NCBI RefSeq assembly: GCF_964204645.1
Contig: NC_134035.1
Span: forward strand, 11,258,951-11,322,950
DNA length: 64,000 nt
DNA from: Tubulanus polymorphus
Taxonomy: Eukaryota > Nemertea > Palaeonemertea > Tubulaniformes > Tubulanidae
Direction of reading: 5' to 3'
The notes under the pieces were generated by a model. The model did no database searches. It saw nothing but the letters and a program-made list of their open reading frames with translations, and was not told where the DNA came from. Numbering within the stretch: position 1 is the first letter of the stretch; each line of letters opens with the position of its first letter. The position numbers and the translations under genes were made by a program. Shown piece after piece: positions 3,190 to 59,571 of this stretch.

Positions 3190-3295
3190 CCAAGTTCCAC
3201 AGTTGTGAGTTAGAGTTAACTCTTTTGAGTTGAAGTTAGTTCATTTTCAATGAGTTAACTCAGAGTTAAATCTTAACTCGGAACTGTGGAACTGG
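3190..3295. mobile_element. Palindromic MITE, GTTCCACAGT family, copy 1
   Basis: The segment folds on itself. It starts CCAAGTTCCACAGTT and the reverse complement of its end starts CCAGTTCCACAGTTCC; GAGTTAACTC appears on both arms around a short spacer. A diverged relative lies at 31176-31259. No target duplication was evident. Confidence 0.6.
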
Positions 3296-3332
3296 ACCAT
3301 GGTGCATAATCTATAAATCCGATAGAAGCGGT

Positions 3333-3803
3333 TGGATGACTGGGCAACTGGATGACTGGGCGACTGCATGACTGGGTGACTGGGCGACTGGGCGACTGGA
3401 TGACTGTATGACTGGACCACTGGGTGACTGGGCCACTGGGTGACTGGGTGACTGGATGACTGGGTGACTGGGCCACTGGATGCCTGGGCGACTAGATGAC
3501 TGGATGACTGGGTGACTGGGCCACTGGATGCCTGGACGACTAGATGACTGGATGACTGGGTGACTGGGCCACTGGATGCCTGGGCGACTAGATGACTGGA
3601 TGACTGGGTGACTGGGCCACTGGATGCCTGGACGACTAGATGACTGGATGACTAGATGACTGGGCCACTGGATGCCTGGACGACTAGATGACTGGATGAC
3701 TGGGTGACTGGGCCACTGGATGCCTGGGCGACTAGATGACTGGGCCACTGGATGCCTGGGCGACTAGATGACTGGGCCACTGGATGCCTGGACGACTAGA
3801 TGA
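3333..3803. repeat. Minisatellite with 8-bp units in a 48-bp higher-order repeat
   Basis: The tract is built from 8-bp words of the form ATGACTGG, GTGACTGG, GCCACTGG, ATGCCTGG and ACGACTAG. Six words in fixed order make a 48-bp higher-order unit repeated several times, with shorter copies near the right end. Because 48 is a multiple of 3, the minus strand stays open for 145 codons (3311-3748) and spells a 16-residue Ser/Pro/Gln-rich repeat. That frame is best explained by repeat arithmetic: it shows no domain and no flanking exon signals. Confidence 0.85.
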
Positions 3804-5138: not shown

Positions 5139-5161
5139 CAGACGATACTTGAAGCTCGAAG

Positions 5162-6058
5162 ATGGACGAATCAAAATACAGCGACAGTTTCCGAACATTT
5201 CGTCTAAATCACAGCGAAGAAAATAATTTCGGACCGAAGAGATTAGGTGAAGCAGTTCGTGCTGTCCGTCAGGCTGTTAGCGGCAAACTGACGACACCGG
5301 ACGGCAGGCGTAGAGGTTTGAGATTGTTAGTAGTCGGTCCGGCTCACGGATATTTGTTAGAAGACACGTTGTCTGAAGTCGGTAATGAAGTGAGTTTCGA
5401 ACGCATGGACTGCGTTGAGCCAAACGAAGTTTTGGCGCGGGAGCTGGAAACTCGAATGAATACACTCGCCAGTAAGTACGGCTTCGAGTCCAATGTGCAC
5501 ACACGTAAATTCACTTACGAGGAGGCGCCTACTTTCTTACCAAACGACTTCTACGATTTGATCATTTTTTCGCACGTGCTCTATTTCTTGGACGATCCAG
5601 CAGAATGTTTGGAAGTGTCGCTCTGTAAGTTAGCGAATGAGTGTGGACGAGTGTTCCTGAGTTCAACGAAGAATGAACAGTGTTTCAAGATGTGTCAAGA
5701 AATTCAAGCTCTCGCTGGTTTTTCATCCACTCCCTACGTCCATATTGACATAGATGAAATCCTTCGCGCGAGAGCGGCTAAGATAACTTTGGTTTCGCGC
5801 TCCACCGATGAAGCCGCAATTCTGATGCACCTAGCCCTGAAACCGGCCCGATTGTGTATCAACGAACAGGACGCGGCGATTCGTAAAATGAGCGACGAAG
5901 TACCGACGTTTATAGCGGGTCGAGATTTAGATACTTTACTGGAAACATCGCGCGCACAAGTTCAGGATATCATCCGTAAATATGTCGTCTACAGTTACGG
6001 GTTTCCGATGTTGCCTATGACACTGGAAAAGTTCATACTGGCCAGAAACGTCAGATGA
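5162..6058 (+). CDS. HNMT: Histamine N-methyltransferase-like protein
   Basis: This complete 298-residue frame is close to the vertebrate HNMT length of 292. The N-terminus, YSDSFRTFRLNHSEEN (residues 6-21), matches the HNMT SFRRFLNHSTE block, whose Glu contacts histamine. Residues 55-67 (LLVVGPAHGYLLE) occupy the place of the SAM-binding glycine motif, with G-P-A-H-G instead of the usual G-G-G. CVEPNEVLARELE (84-96) fits the acidic SAM-ribose strand, and DLIIFSHVLYFLDDP (132-146) matches the DF.HM.QMLYYV.D segment. HNMT transfers methyl from SAM to the histamine ring nitrogen in the cytosol. The substrate of this protein is not proven, since invertebrate relatives form large HNMT-like families. 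The coding region has no intron. The first ATG fits the family N-terminus and follows a likely acceptor. No functional neighbour is visible. Confidence 0.85.
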   Translation: MDESKYSDSFRTFRLNHSEENNFGPKRLGEAVRAVRQAVSGKLTTPDGRRRGLRLLVVGPAHGYLLEDTLSEVGNEVSFERMDCVEPNEVLARELETRMNTLASKYGFESNVHTRKFTYEEAPTFLPNDFYDLIIFSHVLYFLDDPAECLEVSLCKLANECGRVFLSSTKNEQCFKMCQEIQALAGFSSTPYVHIDIDEILRARAAKITLVSRSTDEAAILMHLALKPARLCINEQDAAIRKMSDEVPTFIAGRDLDTLLETSRAQVQDIIRKYVVYSYGFPMLPMTLEKFILARNVR

Positions 6059-10978: not shown

Positions 10979-11105
10979 GGGATCATTCATTTATTACGTA
11001 CGCATGAAATTCGGCCATTTTTTCATATACATTAAGCATTACGGTACGCAATTGCACTGACCCCCTCCCCCTCCCCTAATACGTACATAATAAATGAATG
11101 ATCCC
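10979..11105. mobile_element. MITE, GGGATCATTCATTTATTACG family, copy 1
   Basis: The element is 127 bp with near-perfect terminal inverted repeats starting GGGATCATTCATTTATTACG. It is flanked by CTG on both sides (10976-10978 and 11106-11108), which fits a 3-bp target duplication. The core shares GGCCATTTTTTCATATACAT with the reverse-oriented copy at 17645-17809. Three-base duplications are known for PIF/Harbinger, CACTA and Zator elements; the superfamily is not settled. Confidence 0.8.
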
Positions 11106-12163: not shown

Positions 12164-12345
12164 CTATCTGTTTGTCACCAGATGGCGTTGAATTATCATT
12201 TGCGTCGTCGTTATTAAAGTCACCGACGCGCAAATTACAGTCGTTACGATCGAAGACGAAATCGTCGCCGCTCCCTGCGACACGCGTTTCGCGTCGCTCG
12301 GATTGTTCGTTAAAACCTCGTTCGTATTTTTGTCTTTTATTATGT
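12164..12345 (-). CDS. EFN: Ephrin exon E: hydrophobic C-terminus and stop
   Basis: A minus-strand acceptor (tttctattttcag) precedes this exon. The incoming phase (one base, G, from exon D) joins AC to give Asp, then 59 codons run to TAG at 12164-12166. The peptide is hydrophilic first ([19 protein letters not shown]), then small residues (SQGAAT), then a moderately hydrophobic run ([14 protein letters not shown]), then a short basic tail. This fits either a GPI-attachment signal, as in A-type and nematode ephrins, or a membrane span with a tiny cytoplasmic tail. No B-type tyrosine-rich tail or PDZ-binding end is present. A second minus-strand frame here is also open, but its phase does not match exon D. 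Codon use in the chosen frame, rich in NCG, resembles the other exons. Confidence 0.6.
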
Positions 12346-12964: not shown

Positions 12965-13111
12965 CTTTTTCCTTCGTTTTAGGAGGTATATACTTTTTGG
13001 TTGTTATTTGCTGCCTACGTGTAGTAGTGGTGGTTGATTGCGTAGAAGTCGATGACACCGGACGCGGTCGAGTGACCGGCTTCACTTGACCTCCGCCGTC
13101 ATATCCTCCTT
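12965..13111 (-). CDS. EFN: Ephrin exon D: Thr/Pro-rich stalk
   Basis: This 147-bp exon sits between an acceptor (gattttctag) and a donor (AAAG|GTAAGAAT) and is phase 1 on both sides. Its first codon is completed by C from exon C to give Gln, then GGYDGGGQVKPVTRPRP, then a Ser/Thr run (SSTSTQSTTTTT), then a basic segment (RRQQITTKKYIPPKTKEK). It has no cysteine and no fold, as expected for the flexible, probably O-glycosylated linker between an ephrin receptor-binding domain and the membrane. The assignment to this gene rests on strand, order and matching phase. Stalks are poorly conserved, so sequence similarity cannot confirm it. Confidence 0.65.
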
Positions 13112-14438: not shown

Positions 14439-14543
14439 GTGAATTCTCATCGCAGCACACTTTGAATATCATTTTCATGTTTAAATACTTGCACGCGCCA
14501 TGGTAAGTATTTTCGAGACCATCAAGATCACCTCTCGATGTAG
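14439..14543 (-). CDS. EFN: Ephrin exon C: C-terminal end of receptor-binding domain
   Basis: The 105-bp exon follows a strong acceptor (ttttgcttgtag) and ends before donor GTAAGT; both junctions are phase 1. Joined to either exon B or B', it reads YYYI-T-TSRGDLDGLENTYHGAC, matching the ephrin pattern YYYISTS.G...GL....GGVC. It then runs KYLNMKMIFKVC, matching the final strand T.AMK..MKVG. The Cys in HGAC is the fourth conserved ephrin cysteine. The additional CC just after the domain is unusual. The exact fit of the split Thr codon with both upstream exons strongly supports the model. Confidence 0.85.
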
Positions 14544-17548: not shown

Positions 17549-17893
17549 AAAGCCCAACGCAGAAAACATAGGGAAACAAGGAAACACAGAAATAAACATG
17601 TCTGATATTGGAAACATCGTTTCCCGAACCATGTTTATTGTTTCGGGGTCATTCATTTATTACGTACGCATCAAGGGAGGGGGGAGGAGTCAATGCAATT
17701 GCGTACTGTAATGCTTAATGTATATGAAAAAATGGCCGATTTTGCGTACAGAGGGGGAGGGGGGATGAAAATTTCAAATTTTATGCGTACGTAATAAATG
17801 AATGATCCCTTCTCGTAAATGCAAACAGGGAATTGGTCAGAAACATATTTCTGTCTCCTTTTCTCCGGTTTCCCAATGTCGTGTGCGTTGGGC
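17549..17893. mobile_element. GGGAAACA/GTTTCC-family element, interrupted by a nested MITE
   Basis: The left part reads AGCCCAACGCAGAAAACATA followed by GGGAAACAAGGAAACACAG. The right part ends GTTTCCCAATGTCGTGTGCGTTGGGCT, an approximate inverse of the start. Related sequence is at 51930-52290 and a partial copy at 28181-28310. The unit is split by the MITE at 17645-17809. Confidence 0.6.
17645..17809. mobile_element. MITE, GGGATCATTCATTTATTACG family, copy 2, nested
   Basis: 165 bp, with terminal inverted repeats starting GGGGTCATTCATTTATTACG (left) and GGGATCATTCATTTATTACG (right end, reverse complement). It is flanked by TTC on both sides (17642-17644 and 17810-17812). Its core is the reverse of the copy at 10979-11105. 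Removing it and one TTC restores gtttctcgtaaatg, which aligns with gtttcttgtaatgg in the related host element near 52012. Confidence 0.8.
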
Positions 17894-19758: not shown

Positions 19759-19930
19759 TGATATAATAATACGATTGTCCAGGCCTGAACTCGGGCGTAT
19801 TTGGAATAGCGGTATACCGACTGAAGATTATCGTATACCGTCGTCTGAACTGTGGACGACTGCAGTTGATTATGCGCATCATTTTGATCGGAGTAAAAAT
19901 ATTACAATCGTCGTAATTTTGTTTTGGCAC
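19759..19930 (-). CDS. EFN: Ephrin exon B': alternative second half of receptor-binding domain
   Basis: This 172-bp exon (57 codons plus one base) follows acceptor gcgatttcag and ends at donor GTAAGTTC. It begins VPKQNYDDCNIF, has the third cysteine in IINCSRPQ, and ends IPNTPEFRPGQSYYYI, matching the ephrin F.PG..YYYIS motif. Its start (phase 0) and end (phase 1) are the same as exon B, and the aligned framework residues (KQ.YDDCN.F, IPNT.EF..GQ.YYYI) are shared. The segment expected to be the G-H loop reads TIIFSRYTAIPN here and TMLVTPFASIPN in B. It lies 968 bp downstream of B in the transcript direction. It appears intact: no stop, and good splice sites. A relic exon is possible but less likely. 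Confidence 0.85.
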
Positions 19931-20007
19931 CTGAAATCGCATGGAAAAACGGAAAAATATGGATGAAGCAGAAATAAAGATATTACACGTTCGTAGAGGA
20001 AAATTTA

Positions 20008-20038
20008 AAAAAAAAAAAAAAGAAAAAAAAAAAAAAAG
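20008..20038. repeat. A-rich tract
   Basis: Two runs of A separated by a single G. On the minus strand this is a T-rich tract about 80 bases upstream of exon B' and could contribute to its acceptor region. Confidence 0.8.
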
Positions 20039-20039
20039 T

Positions 20040-20340
20040 TGTGAGACGCCGATGAGGAGGGTACGTGAGGCGAGTCCGTCTGCTACTGACGGTTGGAGCA
20101 TCGGACGCGCCTCACGGTTGAGGAGCGCGCGTAGTTATGAGACCGATAGATCTAACGGTTTCACGACGACGCGCGCTCCCAGGGGGCGCCAACTTCGGAT
20201 TCGCGCTTTCATTCGTTTCGGCGAAAACTCGATCCGAATTCTCTCCTCGCGGCTACGCGCGACAGTATACATACGTGTTCGTGCGCGAGGCCATGCCGAA
20301 TTCAGAAATAGAAAACTCCGCGTCGTGCGGTATTCATAAA
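20040..20340. other. CpG-rich block in the B-B' intron
   Basis: This block is clearly richer in CG dinucleotides than its surroundings (for example ggacgcgcctcacggttg and agcgcgcgtagt) and has no repeat structure. It lies between the two alternative exons. It could be a splicing or transcriptional control element, but no motif proves this. The long plus frame at 19941-20339 is not supported as a gene. Confidence 0.3.
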
Positions 20341-20428
20341 AAGCAGAACGGTGTTTGATATATTATTACTACATAGTAATAGTGCTGCGATAATGATTTC
20401 AAAGCGAATAGAGAAGAAAATGATTTAA

Positions 20429-20700
20429 CCCTTTCAGTGCTGACTACTCAATACTCGAAAGTGCCGGAGATAATTTGAAAAGTTCACCCCAGTGAGTTGA
20501 ATAACGAGCATACTGCTCTGATGTGCCTACACTGTGGTGCGGTGTATTGTTGTTAGTAATACGGCACTATGTTTGACAGGTGCTGCCATCTCTCCAAAGA
20601 GAAAAAACTAATTCATAACTAATTACATCAATACACCGCGGTGCGATGTACAAGCACTATAGTTTATACACCGCACTGCCATGTAGACGAACTGAAAGGG
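20429..20700. mobile_element. MITE, CCCTTTCAGTG family, copy 2, in the B-B' intron
   Basis: 272 bp beginning CCCTTTCAGTGC and ending ACTGAAAGGG, flanked by TTAA (20425-20428) and TTAG (20701-20704). The interior has CACCGC-rich palindromic blocks shared with the copies at 12420 and 27147. TTAA duplication with CCC ends is the piggyBac-type signature. Confidence 0.75.
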
Positions 20701-20898
20701 TTAGAATTTCAAACGTTCGCACCAAAGAGTTTTTTCTATATTCTTCACCGGACCGGACCATGCACGTAAACTAATGCAGATTGTCACGCGCCTCACACAC
20801 TACCCATTCAATGCATCAGCAACAGGAGCTAGGAACAGGAGGAAGCAGCAGCAGCGTCAGGATTGAGGCTCCTAAACGCGCGCGCGTACACAACTTAC

Positions 20899-21067
20899 TT
20901 ATGTAGTAATAGGCCTGGCCGGCCTTAAATTCGGCGGTGTTAGGGATCGATGCGAAAGGGGTAACGAGCATCGTGATTCGGCGTTGGCGTTTTTTGTTAT
21001 CGCACGTGAGAACGCGATTGACCCGGTTGGAAAATACGTTACAATCGTCGTAGCCTTGTTTCGTCAC
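20899..21067 (-). CDS. EFN: Ephrin exon B: second half of receptor-binding domain
   Basis: This 169-bp exon (56 codons plus one base) follows acceptor gtctctag and ends at donor GTAAGTTG. It begins VTKQGYDDCNVFSNRV, has the third cysteine in VLTCDNKK, and ends IPNTAEFKAGQAYYYI, the ephrin F..G..YYYIS signature. TPFAS in the middle matches the TPF.L core of the canonical G-H loop (FTPFSLGFEF), the main Eph-binding loop. Exon A ends in phase 0 at EYYVIYQ, so the join reads YYVIYQVTKQGYDDC. The trailing A is completed by CT of exon C. Four-cysteine spacing across A, B and C agrees with ephrins. B is the first of two alternatives, with B' downstream. Confidence 0.9.
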
Positions 21068-24590: not shown

Positions 24591-24714
24591 CTGGTATATC
24601 ACATAGTATTCCATGTTATTGGCGTTGTAGCCCGGATAATAAGAAGGACAGATTAGATCTATTTTATCCCCCATATTCACATGTATCACATGATCGGTGT
24701 TGTTGGACTCGAAC
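24591..24714 (-). CDS. EFN: Ephrin exon A: first half of receptor-binding domain
   Basis: This 124-bp exon follows acceptor tgtatttttcag and ends at donor CAG|GTATAT. The first G completes a split codon. In ephrins this position is the Trp of the conserved (V/I)YW, so TG|G is expected. The peptide runs FESNNTDHVIHVNMGDKIDL then ICPSYYPGYNANNMEYYVIYQ. This matches N.SNP...I.V...D.LDIICP and the YEYY.VY block, including the first conserved cysteine. NNT is a possible N-glycosylation site. Ephrins are membrane-attached ligands of Eph receptor tyrosine kinases used in cell-contact signalling and guidance. The preceding exon with the signal peptide and the YW residues was not located on the minus strand above 24714. 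Confidence 0.88.
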
Positions 24715-55339: not shown

Positions 55340-57260
55340 ATCAGTGAATTTTCATCACCAATATATGAAAAAGTCAATCCATATTTTATAGAGTGTAATA
55401 ACGAGTGATAAGAGTATTGGGGTAAATCAAGATCATTTCAGTTGTCGTGAAAACTCTTTATTTTATTACTTCATTCAGTGGCGAAATAACAGCGAATGAA
55501 TGGATATGACTCAATTAAGACAGTAACTACACCAGCACGCGTCTCTGTGAGCTACAGCAAGTCAATCTCCAACTTGGATTTATTAATAATCTTTATATCA
55601 CAGGTGAAGTAGCACCGGTAACACCGACTAACGGTCTCCGGATATACGTCAATGAATCAGGAAATAGGTTGCGTTTTATACAAAATATAGGTTCGCGTAT
55701 ACATATATATACTAATGAATTTAATATCAAAGCGATTGAGAGGGACCGAGAGCGAGAGCGTGTGCACTTATATGACCCTGTTGTTGACATGATCAAATTC
55801 ATGAACCGATTTTAATATTCCATTCAGCGAAATGAACGTATGCATTAGTACTAACGAGATACTAGGTATAATATACGTGATGAAGTCAATAAACTAGGAT
55901 TCATCGATACCGGCAAATGTTTGCAGCAGAAAGATGGCCGCCTCGGCTTAATCATTGTAAGACAATGATTGCATCAATTGCCAGTGATTTCACTTGTTAA
56001 CTAAGCAAGAAAATGAGAGTGAAATGGTAATAAAATATGTGGTAACGCAACTGAAGTGACAATGTTTTCAGGAATGTTTTGAGATGATATTCAAGGGTGT
56101 ATTTAGGGGCTGGATCGACTGGGCTAGTCAACCCCCTTCAAAGTTTGAATATGCCCTCCAAAAAGTCTGGGGAATTTTTTGCATAAAAACGTTTTAAAGG
56201 ACAAAGTGGGTGGTGATGAGGGCCATAAAGCCCTTTTTGTCCTAATTCTTCATTGGTAGGGCTGTCAGAAACCAACACCAATTTTCATCTTTGCAGCCCT
56301 TTGCCCTTTTCAAATTAAGTGCCCATTCCATTTCAGGTCAACCCCCCATCCAGGAATTCTAAATCCCCTTTGACATTAACTTAATATGCCTGCTTTGCAG
56401 CCATCTTTTCTTTCTTGACGACATAAGAATAAACCGAAAGGGACCCAGGCTAAAATTAACCTCGGTGATATCATTCGATTTTGGGGTTAAACACGCCGAT
56501 TGAAGTTGGTAAATCCCTAGGGGTAAACTTTGCCGCATGTCAATAATATCAACCTGAAAACTGCATTAGATTCGTATGATGTAATGATGTAACGAGCCTT
56601 AAGCTACATGAAAATACACTTCATAAAACAAAACGCAGTTAGGTTTTCTTTTAAACTGCTCTAAACTTCATACGGAAAACGTGCGCAATATCGAATTTTA
56701 GACAAGACTGTCTTTATGTATAACTATAACATATAGACAAAAGATGAATAAAAGGTGTGTCGTATTGAACTGCTTACCACCACAGCCATCCCGCGTCCCT
56801 TTATCAGAATTTCATACATAATTCAAAATATGTCCTTTGTTTGAAAATTGATTAAAGGCGATAGATGCAATATAAACGCACGTAAATTCGAACATAGAAA
56901 TGGTTGAAACTGTACATTGCGAGCGAAAGCAACGATCACCAATCGGTTTTCTTTCATTGTCAGTTTTGAAAGGTATCAATATTTATTAGCATCTGGATCG
57001 ATAAGATTAATAATACAATTTTTATTTTCATACAGACTTCATTGATCGCTATTTTCTAATATTGCTTATGAAATGAATTTTCCATTTACAGCTTTACGTA
57101 ATAGCATTATTCTATTAATACCAGTCATTGCTACAGCAAAACATACAACAATTTTATGACTTTTGTTTTGATTTTTATCTTAAATTAGGGTTCGTCCTCG
57201 TTATTTATTTGGTTGCAAGATTTTGTCCGATTCGATTTGAGTCGGTGTCCCTTACAAACC
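55340..57260. other. Gene-free stretch
   Basis: AT-rich, no exon or repeat family recognised. Confidence 0.35.
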
Positions 57261-57618
57261 CACCACTACTACAATACTCCCACCACTACTACAATACCCC
57301 CACCACTACTACAATACCCCCACCACTACTACAATACCCCCACCACTACTACAATACCCCCACCACTACTACAATACCCCCACCACAACTACAATACCCC
57401 CACCACTACTACAATACTCCCACCACTACTACAATACCCCCACCACTACTACAATACCCCCACCACTACTACAATACCCCCACCACTACTACAATACCCC
57501 CACCACTACTACAATACCCCCACCACTACTACAATACCCCCACCACTACTACAATACCCCCACCACTACTACAATACCCCCACCACTACTACAATACCCC
57601 CACCACTACTACAATACC
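57261..57618. repeat. 20-bp minisatellite, about 18 copies
   Basis: The unit is CACCACTACTACAATACCCC, repeated about 18 times almost without change; two copies end CTCC and one reads CACAACT. Because 20 is not a multiple of 3, every plus frame cycles through all three phases of the unit, and none contains a stop. This yields overlapping 184- and 138-codon frames with a 20-residue Pro/Tyr/Thr/His repeat. These are repeat artefacts until proven otherwise. Confidence 0.95.
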
Positions 57619-59571
57619 GGGGTTTCTGATTTCTAAAAGAGATAGAGTTGCGCGATTGGCGCAGGCAGAATTTTTTGTTTGAATGCAACTACCTGCACAT
57701 TTAAGTACATAATTTGAAATTTTGGTTCCGGTTCATTCAACCAATCTTCCGACCAACCTGAACAGGGGTGGATATACGAATGGTTGGATATTCGGTGTCA
57801 AACACCTGCCGAATCCGCTTCTGTTTCGGTGCCGTCGTAAGATTTCACTATCCTAATTCTCGTCATGTTTTCGTTGGGAAATTCGACTTCTGGATCAAGA
57901 ACCTGAAGCGCACTAGCACGAGTTTGAAGAGGGTACCAGACCGTGGCGTTGTCCTATAGAGTGCTGAACCCGTGGTATGAAGAATTTGTATTGGCGTATA
58001 ACCCAGTATCTTACGAAAAATAATCCCCGTCGAAAAGAAAACATTTAAACGTGGTTTAAAAACAGTCTTCTCTTAACATAGAAATTAAAAAAAAATTGTA
58101 GGTTAATTTTCTATGTTGTGAAAAAAAATAAAAATGTTTCATTAAAAAGAAATCGGTCACACAGTTCTCTACGACTTGTAGATCATAAACTTTATGTTAC
58201 TTAAAATAACCAAACCATCACTTAGAAAATGATTTCAAAGGAAATTCAAGCGGACTTCAGTGGATTGGCTATAGAACGACGATGGTCTCTGGCGGGTCTT
58301 AAGTTCAAGCCATGACAATGGGACCTGCCACTGATCCTAAATAGATCCAACATTTCAGCAATGAAACCGTTAATTCAAAGATTTCTTTCATATCAATAAC
58401 TTGAAACAATATATTCATTATTGATGACATTCATTGATTCGTTAAGCCTATATGAGCTCATCGACAAAAATCGCTATTTCATCCGATTGTTTTAAGTAAT
58501 ATCGCCGAAAATTGTCGATGACTTCATCATCAAAACAGACCACGACTGGAGTTTTTGCGCGCGTTGAAGATTGTGGTATATACCGTGTAGACATGATTAA
58601 TAGACAACTCTGATATAGTTACCGTGAACGCAGGCCGCGCGCGCTAGCTAGACTTGTATCTAAAGGGAACGATAGAGAGTTAAAGCTGTATAGATAAAAG
58701 TTTCGAGAGAGAAACGATCTTCACCTTTTTCCTCACTCGATTTCTCTTTAACACGAAACACGGGTGGATAATCTCTAAATTTATCGTTCGTTCATCGTTA
58801 CAAACGGGTTGTTCTGCGGAGGGCATGACTAGTAATCTACCACATCTGGGGCTTTTCTTCTAATGAATTTCTCCTACTAGAAATTTACAGTTAAAACGTA
58901 TAGGCAAACAGTTTTGACTATCTAAAATGACTGCAGAGCTGCCAACCTCTGAAAAGTGCTAGCAGTAACAAATTGAACTTTTTTCAGTATTATCTCATTG
59001 AAATATGAAAGAAAATGTTCAATTATTCAGTATTTATCAACAGTAAGACACTCAGTAACATCTTTCAATATCTCTGTACGCATCAAACAAATCAAATCAG
59101 TATTTCTCGTTATAAAATAGTAACAATTACTGAAAATCAGTAACAGTTGGCAGCTCTGGGACTGGTTTTCTATTGAATGTGAATTAGGAATTTGATGAAA
59201 ATGGCAAATGACTCAGTATTATTGGTTTTGATTTCGATTTCTTCTTTCTGGTTTGATCAAGAGAAATCGAGTGACAACCTTACCTTACCTTAGAATATTG
59301 GCTTTCTCGAATATCCGCAATGGATAGTGCGGAGAGGTTAAGCGCTTAGATCATGTTTATAAAGAAAATTGAAGGTGTTATTTTATCTCCTGATGTTTGT
59401 TTTCATACAGATGCTTGTGAAAACTCGCTACAGAGCCGGTGTGTATTACAAATAGATCCATTCGTTTTAGATTTCCTATCGAATCTTATGAATTAAACTG
59501 CACTAGATAATTGTTCAAATACAAAAAAATTTCTAGCAAACCGCAAATGAACCCCAGCGAGACTCAGTGGT
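57619..59571. other. Gene-free stretch
   Basis: A partial GGGGCCAGTTGCA-family trace (ggattggctatagaacgacg) lies near 58262. CpG-retaining patch at about 58530-58830. No exon supported. Confidence 0.35.

Follow-up and report, generated by a model that had tools for sequence, protein, structure and literature searches.

An ephrin gene with two versions of one exon

The window, the 64-kb stretch of Tubulanus polymorphus DNA analysed here, carries on its minus strand most of an ephrin gene in which two neighbouring exons, B and B', encode the same middle part of the receptor-binding domain. The coding exons, and the intron between this pair, are as follows, from the start of the gene to its end; apart from exon 1, coordinates are positions in the window.

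Exon 1 (first coding exon), L015:5756-5650, minus strand: outside the window, 5.6 kb past its end and 44.9 kb upstream of exon A.
Exon A, 24591..24714, minus strand: start of the receptor-binding domain (FESNNTDHV...YYVIYQ), with the first domain cysteine and a phase 0 end; assigned from splice context and translation.
Exon B, 20899..21067, minus strand: alternative version 1 of the mid receptor-binding domain, 169 nt; Ephrin match at E 3.8e-10.
B-B' intron, 19931..20898, minus strand: 968 nt.
Exon B', 19759..19930, minus strand: alternative version 2, same segment as B, 172 nt; Ephrin match at E 4e-10.
Exon C, 14439..14543, minus strand: end of the receptor-binding domain (TSRGDLDGLENTYHGACKYLNMKMIFKV), with the fourth domain cysteine; assigned from a genome match to the spliced domain.
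Exon D, 12965..13111, minus strand: Thr/Ser/Pro-rich stalk; assigned solely on its open frame, phase and splice sites.
Exon E, 12164..12345, minus strand: C-terminal hydrophobic segment and stop codon; assigned from open frame, phase and acceptor only.

A search of the 64-kb window for exon 1 found nothing, and the exon was located beyond the window end by scanning 40 kb upstream for a phase-2 donor accompanied either by a W close to the end or by a leader of hydrophobic residues. The exon selected begins MDMLPWLFLSLLVGYIG, has a hydrophobic leader both by inspection and in the scan, carries IYWNSTNK, and has a donor whose phase is compatible with exon A. Its addition gained the joined protein about 18 bits for Ephrin: the full isoforms score 132.6 bits with B and 132.5 bits with B' over profile positions 7-140 (cut-off 25), as compared with 114.1 and 114.0 bits for the same isoforms lacking exon 1. 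Exon A alone matches the Ephrin family in the genome profile search (E 3.7e-6), and A spliced straight to C, with neither B nor B', scores 43.8 bits. Alignment to ephrin-B2 places the four domain cysteines one each in A and C and two in whichever of B and B' is used. At the other end of the gene, exon E encodes a hydrophobic stretch followed by a short polar tail, a candidate GPI signal or membrane span.

B and B' are homologous exons

The peptide encoded by B is VTKQGYDDCNVFSNRVNRVLTCDNKKRQRRITMLVTPFASIPNTAEFKAGQAYYYI and that encoded by B' is VPKQNYDDCNIFTPIKMMRIINCSRPQFRRRYTIIFSRYTAIPNTPEFRPGQSYYYI. Both exons start in phase 0, end one base into a codon and are followed by a GTAAGTT donor, and both lengths are 1 mod 3. 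An earlier note on this DNA had described the coordinates, phases, lengths, donors and common motifs of the two exons correctly, and its central statement, that they encode the same ephrin domain segment, is borne out by their equal span on the Pfam Ephrin profile (positions 57-111, 55 positions), their adjacency and their identical phases. Identical residues occupy 26 of the 56 aligned positions, and the global peptide alignment scores 151, whereas 2000 shuffles averaged -11.7 and none exceeded 32.

Searches against solved structures returned nothing but ephrin chains for the spliced A-B-C and A-B'-C products (24 of 24 matches for each). Queried alone, B' matched ephrin chains weakly in 20 of 22 cases (best E 0.088), and B alone found no ephrin chain at E ≤10, its three matches being unrelated. 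The two isoforms also differ in their scores against ephrin-B2, at 75.2 bits for the B' isoform and 63.6 bits for the B isoform. Taken together, the observations support a tandem exon duplication within one ephrin gene.

The pair is old and both members are constrained

Comparison of B with B' gives a pS of 0.83 and a pN of 0.32, and codon positions 1, 2 and 3 are identical at 33, 41 and 20 of the 56 codons, an excess of agreement at second over third positions that is significant (Fisher P 1.3e-4). The intron sequence around the exons has no such likeness: some 300 bases on each side aligned no better between B and B' than did shuffled sequence (n=200), scoring 24 upstream (shuffle maximum 27) and 15 downstream (shuffle maximum 26); in the matching test the exons themselves scored 38 (shuffle maximum 24). 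Judged from these saturated synonymous sites and unrelated flanks, the pair is old. An assembly duplication as its source is ruled out by the 26 of 56 identical residues and by the same unrelated flanks.

A neutral simulation matched to the third-position identity retained a mean of 5.9 and a maximum of 16 identical residues of 56 in 2000 runs, well short of the 26 observed, and with the codon-position pattern this shows, by sequence comparison, that both B and B' are under constraint. An open frame is by itself weak evidence, since 179 of the 2000 neutral copies also remained open. As a yardstick, ephrin-B1 and ephrin-B2 are identical at 29 of 55 residues over the same segment, so B and B' have diverged about as far as two vertebrate ephrin genes, or slightly further. 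Relatives sought in viral and prokaryote contigs gave 75 and 22 pattern matches, respectively, of which none was confirmed.

Reading frame and splicing signals

The frame permits A-B-C or A-B'-C only, as the earlier note had argued, with double inclusion and double skipping both out of frame. The A-B-B'-C product meets a stop in B', at codon ten if the split codon is included in the count, exactly as claimed there, and A-C meets one at the 21st codon of C. Because both exons together, or neither, break the frame, each mRNA should carry exactly one of them. Premature stops upstream of an exon junction usually lead to transcript decay, and since the stops of A-B-B'-C and A-C both lie upstream of further junctions, decay is expected for these forms; an mRNA with both exons or with neither would be degraded or would yield a truncated protein. 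Such a break of frame on joint inclusion or skipping is common, though not universal, among tandem mutually exclusive exons. We thus infer mutual exclusivity in the RNA and decay of the misspliced forms.

The acceptors of the two exons stand out. Upstream of its acceptor, B' has an AG-free zone of 147 nt and B one of 93 nt, the longest among the six exons measured (A 56, C 51, D 39 and E 50 nt), and on the gene strand of the window only 5 of the 3192 AG-to-AG gaps are 130 nt or longer. The zone before B' includes a run of 32 pyrimidines. Passages of a study of such exons (PMC1431707) report that in human genes alternative splicing is commoner among exons whose AG-free zone reaches 100 nt, and trace such zones in part to distant branch points, with repeats as another possible source. 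B' lies above this 100-nt mark and B below it, and the polypyrimidine run before B' counts against reading its acceptor as regulated, given that long zones can come from repeats. From the lengths of the zones, regulated acceptor use at B and B' nevertheless seems likely.

How one exon would exclude the other can be narrowed in part. Steric exclusion by a short intron as the main mechanism is ruled out because the B-B' intron is 968 nt long. The computed fold of this intron is more stable than those of 20 shuffled versions (z -6.9), and inverted repeats are present (38 pairs); docking-selector RNA pairing may or may not be the exclusion mechanism. The hexamer TGCATG, which we take to be an Rbfox-type motif, occurs once 44 nt upstream and once 134 nt downstream of B and is absent from the 300-nt flanks of B'. 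There are 20 copies on the gene strand of the window, 0.19 would be expected per 600 nt, and as the motif was picked from six classes after the fact, its placement gives no more than a weak hint that B might be under Rbfox-type control.

A separate feature of this intron is a palindrome at 20122-20179, in its CpG-rich part, with 29-nt arms that are 83% complementary and have no spacer. A 486-nt DNA search there returned, apart from the sequence itself, the opposite strand of the palindrome and a single match of 34 nt at another site.

One ephrin locus and one Eph ligand-binding domain found

Genome searches covered 267.8 Mb in 77 contigs, in six frames. The Ephrin family profile found three matches, which are A, B and B', and a spliced-domain protein query found four, which are A, B, B' and C. 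As every genomic ephrin match falls within one locus, no other ephrin locus is apparent at the sensitivity of these searches. Second copies of A, C and B were also sought within the window by tblastn, where the next-best matches had E values of 0.23, 0.065 and 0.025, respectively, and were taken as chance. No further A or C was found in the window or the genome, and the idea that B' stems from another ephrin gene is therefore rejected.

The Eph ligand-binding family has one match in the genome, on a different contig, and the sequence of that domain, used as its own query, found one further match at an E value of only 1.2. For the Eph transmembrane-region family, a single match exceeds the cut-off, on the same contig and about 26 kb from the ligand-binding domain, and two fall below it (E 0.65 and 0.70). 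With a single Eph ligand-binding domain found, different receptors for the B and B' isoforms are unlikely; the suggestion of the earlier note that the two ligands might differ in receptor preference loses weight, as the genome search revealed no second receptor of this family.

The Eph ligand-binding domain (L004:1273-1983, G000:C7) lies nearly whole in one exon, covering profile positions 22-176. No alternative copy of this exon was detected, unlike the situation in the ephrin gene.

What the exon choice changes in the Eph-binding face

For comparison with ephrin-A1, the EF of B and B' was placed on E119-F120 in an ungapped register, as in the HMMER alignments. Under this numbering residues 108-120, the G-H loop, read VTPFASIPNTAEF in B and FSRYTAIPNTPEF in B'. 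Six of the 13 positions (114-117, 119 and 120) are identical and seven differ, with an aromatic residue at 111 in both. The loop tip, I-P-N-T, is thus common to the two exons along with E119/F120, and what differs in this register is the loop stem. A further difference lies in the stretch separating domain cysteines two and three, which reads NVFSNRVNRVLT in B and NIFTPIKMMRIIN in B' and is presumably near the C-D loop.

Published work on vertebrate ephrins bears on these positions. The relevant passages on ephrin-A1 include residues 89-90 and 102-120 in its interface regions and give its disulphides as C51-C92 and C80-C140 (PMC6485061); elsewhere F111, P113, F114, L116 and E119 are listed as its computed hot spots for EphA2 (PMC6331951), and the C-D loop is called functional, together with the G-H loop, in a section of PMC3274464. 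On this template, exon B or B' would supply C80 and C92, whose partner cysteines would lie in exons C and A. Since both exons supply these cysteines and retain the loop tip, either isoform would be expected to fold and to bind the same pocket of Eph; since the loop stem and the inter-cysteine stretch differ, the likeliest difference between the isoforms is in affinity or kinetics towards the single Eph found.

Two statements made earlier about this region need revision. The exons had been said to swap the Eph-binding loop, which is too broad a description when, in the ungapped register, the tip is identical in both and the stem is what changes. The TPF of B had also been set on the TPF of A-type ephrins, an alignment that needs about three inserted residues where HMMER aligned the loop free of gaps. 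The TPF-on-TPF register would make the B and B' loops differ more, and the affinity reading depends on the ungapped one.

Proposed role of the exon pair and alternatives

We consider it probable that B and B' are an ancient mutually exclusive exon pair that tunes how one ephrin engages one Eph. An ancient tandem duplication would have produced two versions of the mid receptor-binding-domain exon in the only ephrin locus found; each mRNA would carry one version, and the resulting isoforms would bind the same Eph pocket with different affinity or kinetics. Splicing factors that act on the long, pyrimidine-rich AG-free stretches preceding B' and B would probably decide between the two. This proposal starts from the homology of the exons, their frames, the constraint on both, the single locus and the one Eph ligand-binding domain found, and extends from there to expression of both isoforms, a difference in affinity and a splicing regulator. 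Counting against it, B on its own matched no ephrin chain among solved structures.

The pair could also be real and alternative with one isoform having no role with Eph, either because it serves another partner or because it is a non-binding or decoy form, in which case exon choice would be an on/off switch. This we regard as unlikely: seven of the 13 loop positions do differ and the B isoform falls below the B' isoform against ephrin-B2 (63.6 and 75.2 bits), but the loop tip, E119/F120 and an aromatic residue at 111 are retained in both exons, and the isoforms score equally against the Ephrin family as a whole. It is very improbable that B', or B, is vestigial or little used, its frame surviving by chance and the exon entering transcripts rarely if at all. 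Although 179 of 2000 neutral copies do stay open, the 26 of 56 identical residues against a neutral maximum of 16, the agreement at 41 second compared with 20 third codon positions (P 1.3e-4), and the intact splice sites, phase and pair of cysteines in B and B' all speak against this.

We attach only the slightest credence to B' being part of another transcript that overlaps this one and starts independently, for example in the CpG-rich part of the B-B' intron. CpG observed/expected does rise to 1.81 at 20001-20500, compared with 1.15 for the window, and the B' frame is open upstream through the pyrimidine run; yet four other bins of the 30 also reach at least 1.81, no second A or C is present in the window (tblastn E 0.23 and 0.065) or genome, and the product would lack exon A and what it provides, namely a cysteine and the beginning of the domain.

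Comparison with known systems

The gene resembles known ephrins (PF00812; ephrin-B2 and ephrin-A1) in its receptor-binding domain, its four cysteines, the YWNS of exon 1 and the position of its G-H loop. It departs from vertebrate ephrins in having two alternative receptor-binding-domain exons and in the loop tip, where IPNT replaces the vertebrate residues. The small form of ephrin-A5 reportedly arises by skipping of a stalk exon outside the receptor-binding domain, with no swap of homologous exons. It is nevertheless alike in that an ephrin gene gives rise to two isoforms, large and small, as described in part of PMC3408466.

A closer parallel in exon arrangement is U2AF1, whose exons Ab and 3 are tandem duplicates, one of them having an extended pyrimidine tract as B' does; transcripts with both exons or with neither carry stop codons and are degraded, according to the sections of PMC5224494 on this gene. 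The U2AF1 exons differ by seven amino-acid variants, as against 30 of 56 residues here, and in U2AF1 the decay and the regulators were demonstrated (same sections of PMC5224494), whereas at the ephrin locus they are predicted. Human tandem duplicated exon substitutions are also alike, an ancient homologous segment being swapped while the rest of the protein stays identical, and such pairs tend to retain binding residues and vary the rest, in the account given in portions of PMC9741552; the kept loop tip and changed remainder of B and B' fit this tendency. The terms ephrin, EFN and EPH are absent from the main text of that study. The exon, splicing and isoform passages listed for three papers on Eph/ephrin evolution (PMC6993872, PMC2405795 and PMC6485061) likewise mention no ephrin with alternative receptor-binding exons. 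Among the open-licence titles and abstract openings listed, none describes such an ephrin, and one may exist unremarked in gene models.

Possible significance

Vertebrates diversify Eph-ephrin signalling by means of many genes. Our more tentative suggestion, which we hold at somewhat less than even chances, is that in this animal, with its one ephrin and one Eph, the splice switch yields two ligands of different strength, deployed by tissue or stage. Retaining the loop tip and altering the stem would then do what vertebrates do with many ephrin genes. If true, this would be a second route to ligand diversity, by way of an ancient splice switch in the binding face of the ligand, and would allow one to explore whether tissues can be patterned by graded ephrin affinity alone when the receptors are not diverse. 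The prediction is that the two isoforms would show a measurable difference in binding to the one receptor.

Other features of the window

A 301-residue open frame at 5153-6055 on the plus strand is methyltransferase-like (Methyltransf_23, E 3.1e-5), and a 156-residue open frame at the window edge, at 3-470 on the minus strand, resembles a rhodopsin-type receptor (7tm_1, E 1.2e-5); both matches are below the curated cut-off. Tandem repeats open in more than one frame, with units like RPGIQWPSHPVIQSSS and PTTTTIPPPLLQYPHHYYNT, lie at 3250-3763 on the minus strand and at 57119-57679 on the plus strand. Inverted 30-nt arms at 17645-17674 and 17780-17809, 93% complementary, resemble a small mobile element, and words similar to this 17645-17809 segment can be seen by eye near 10980-11105.
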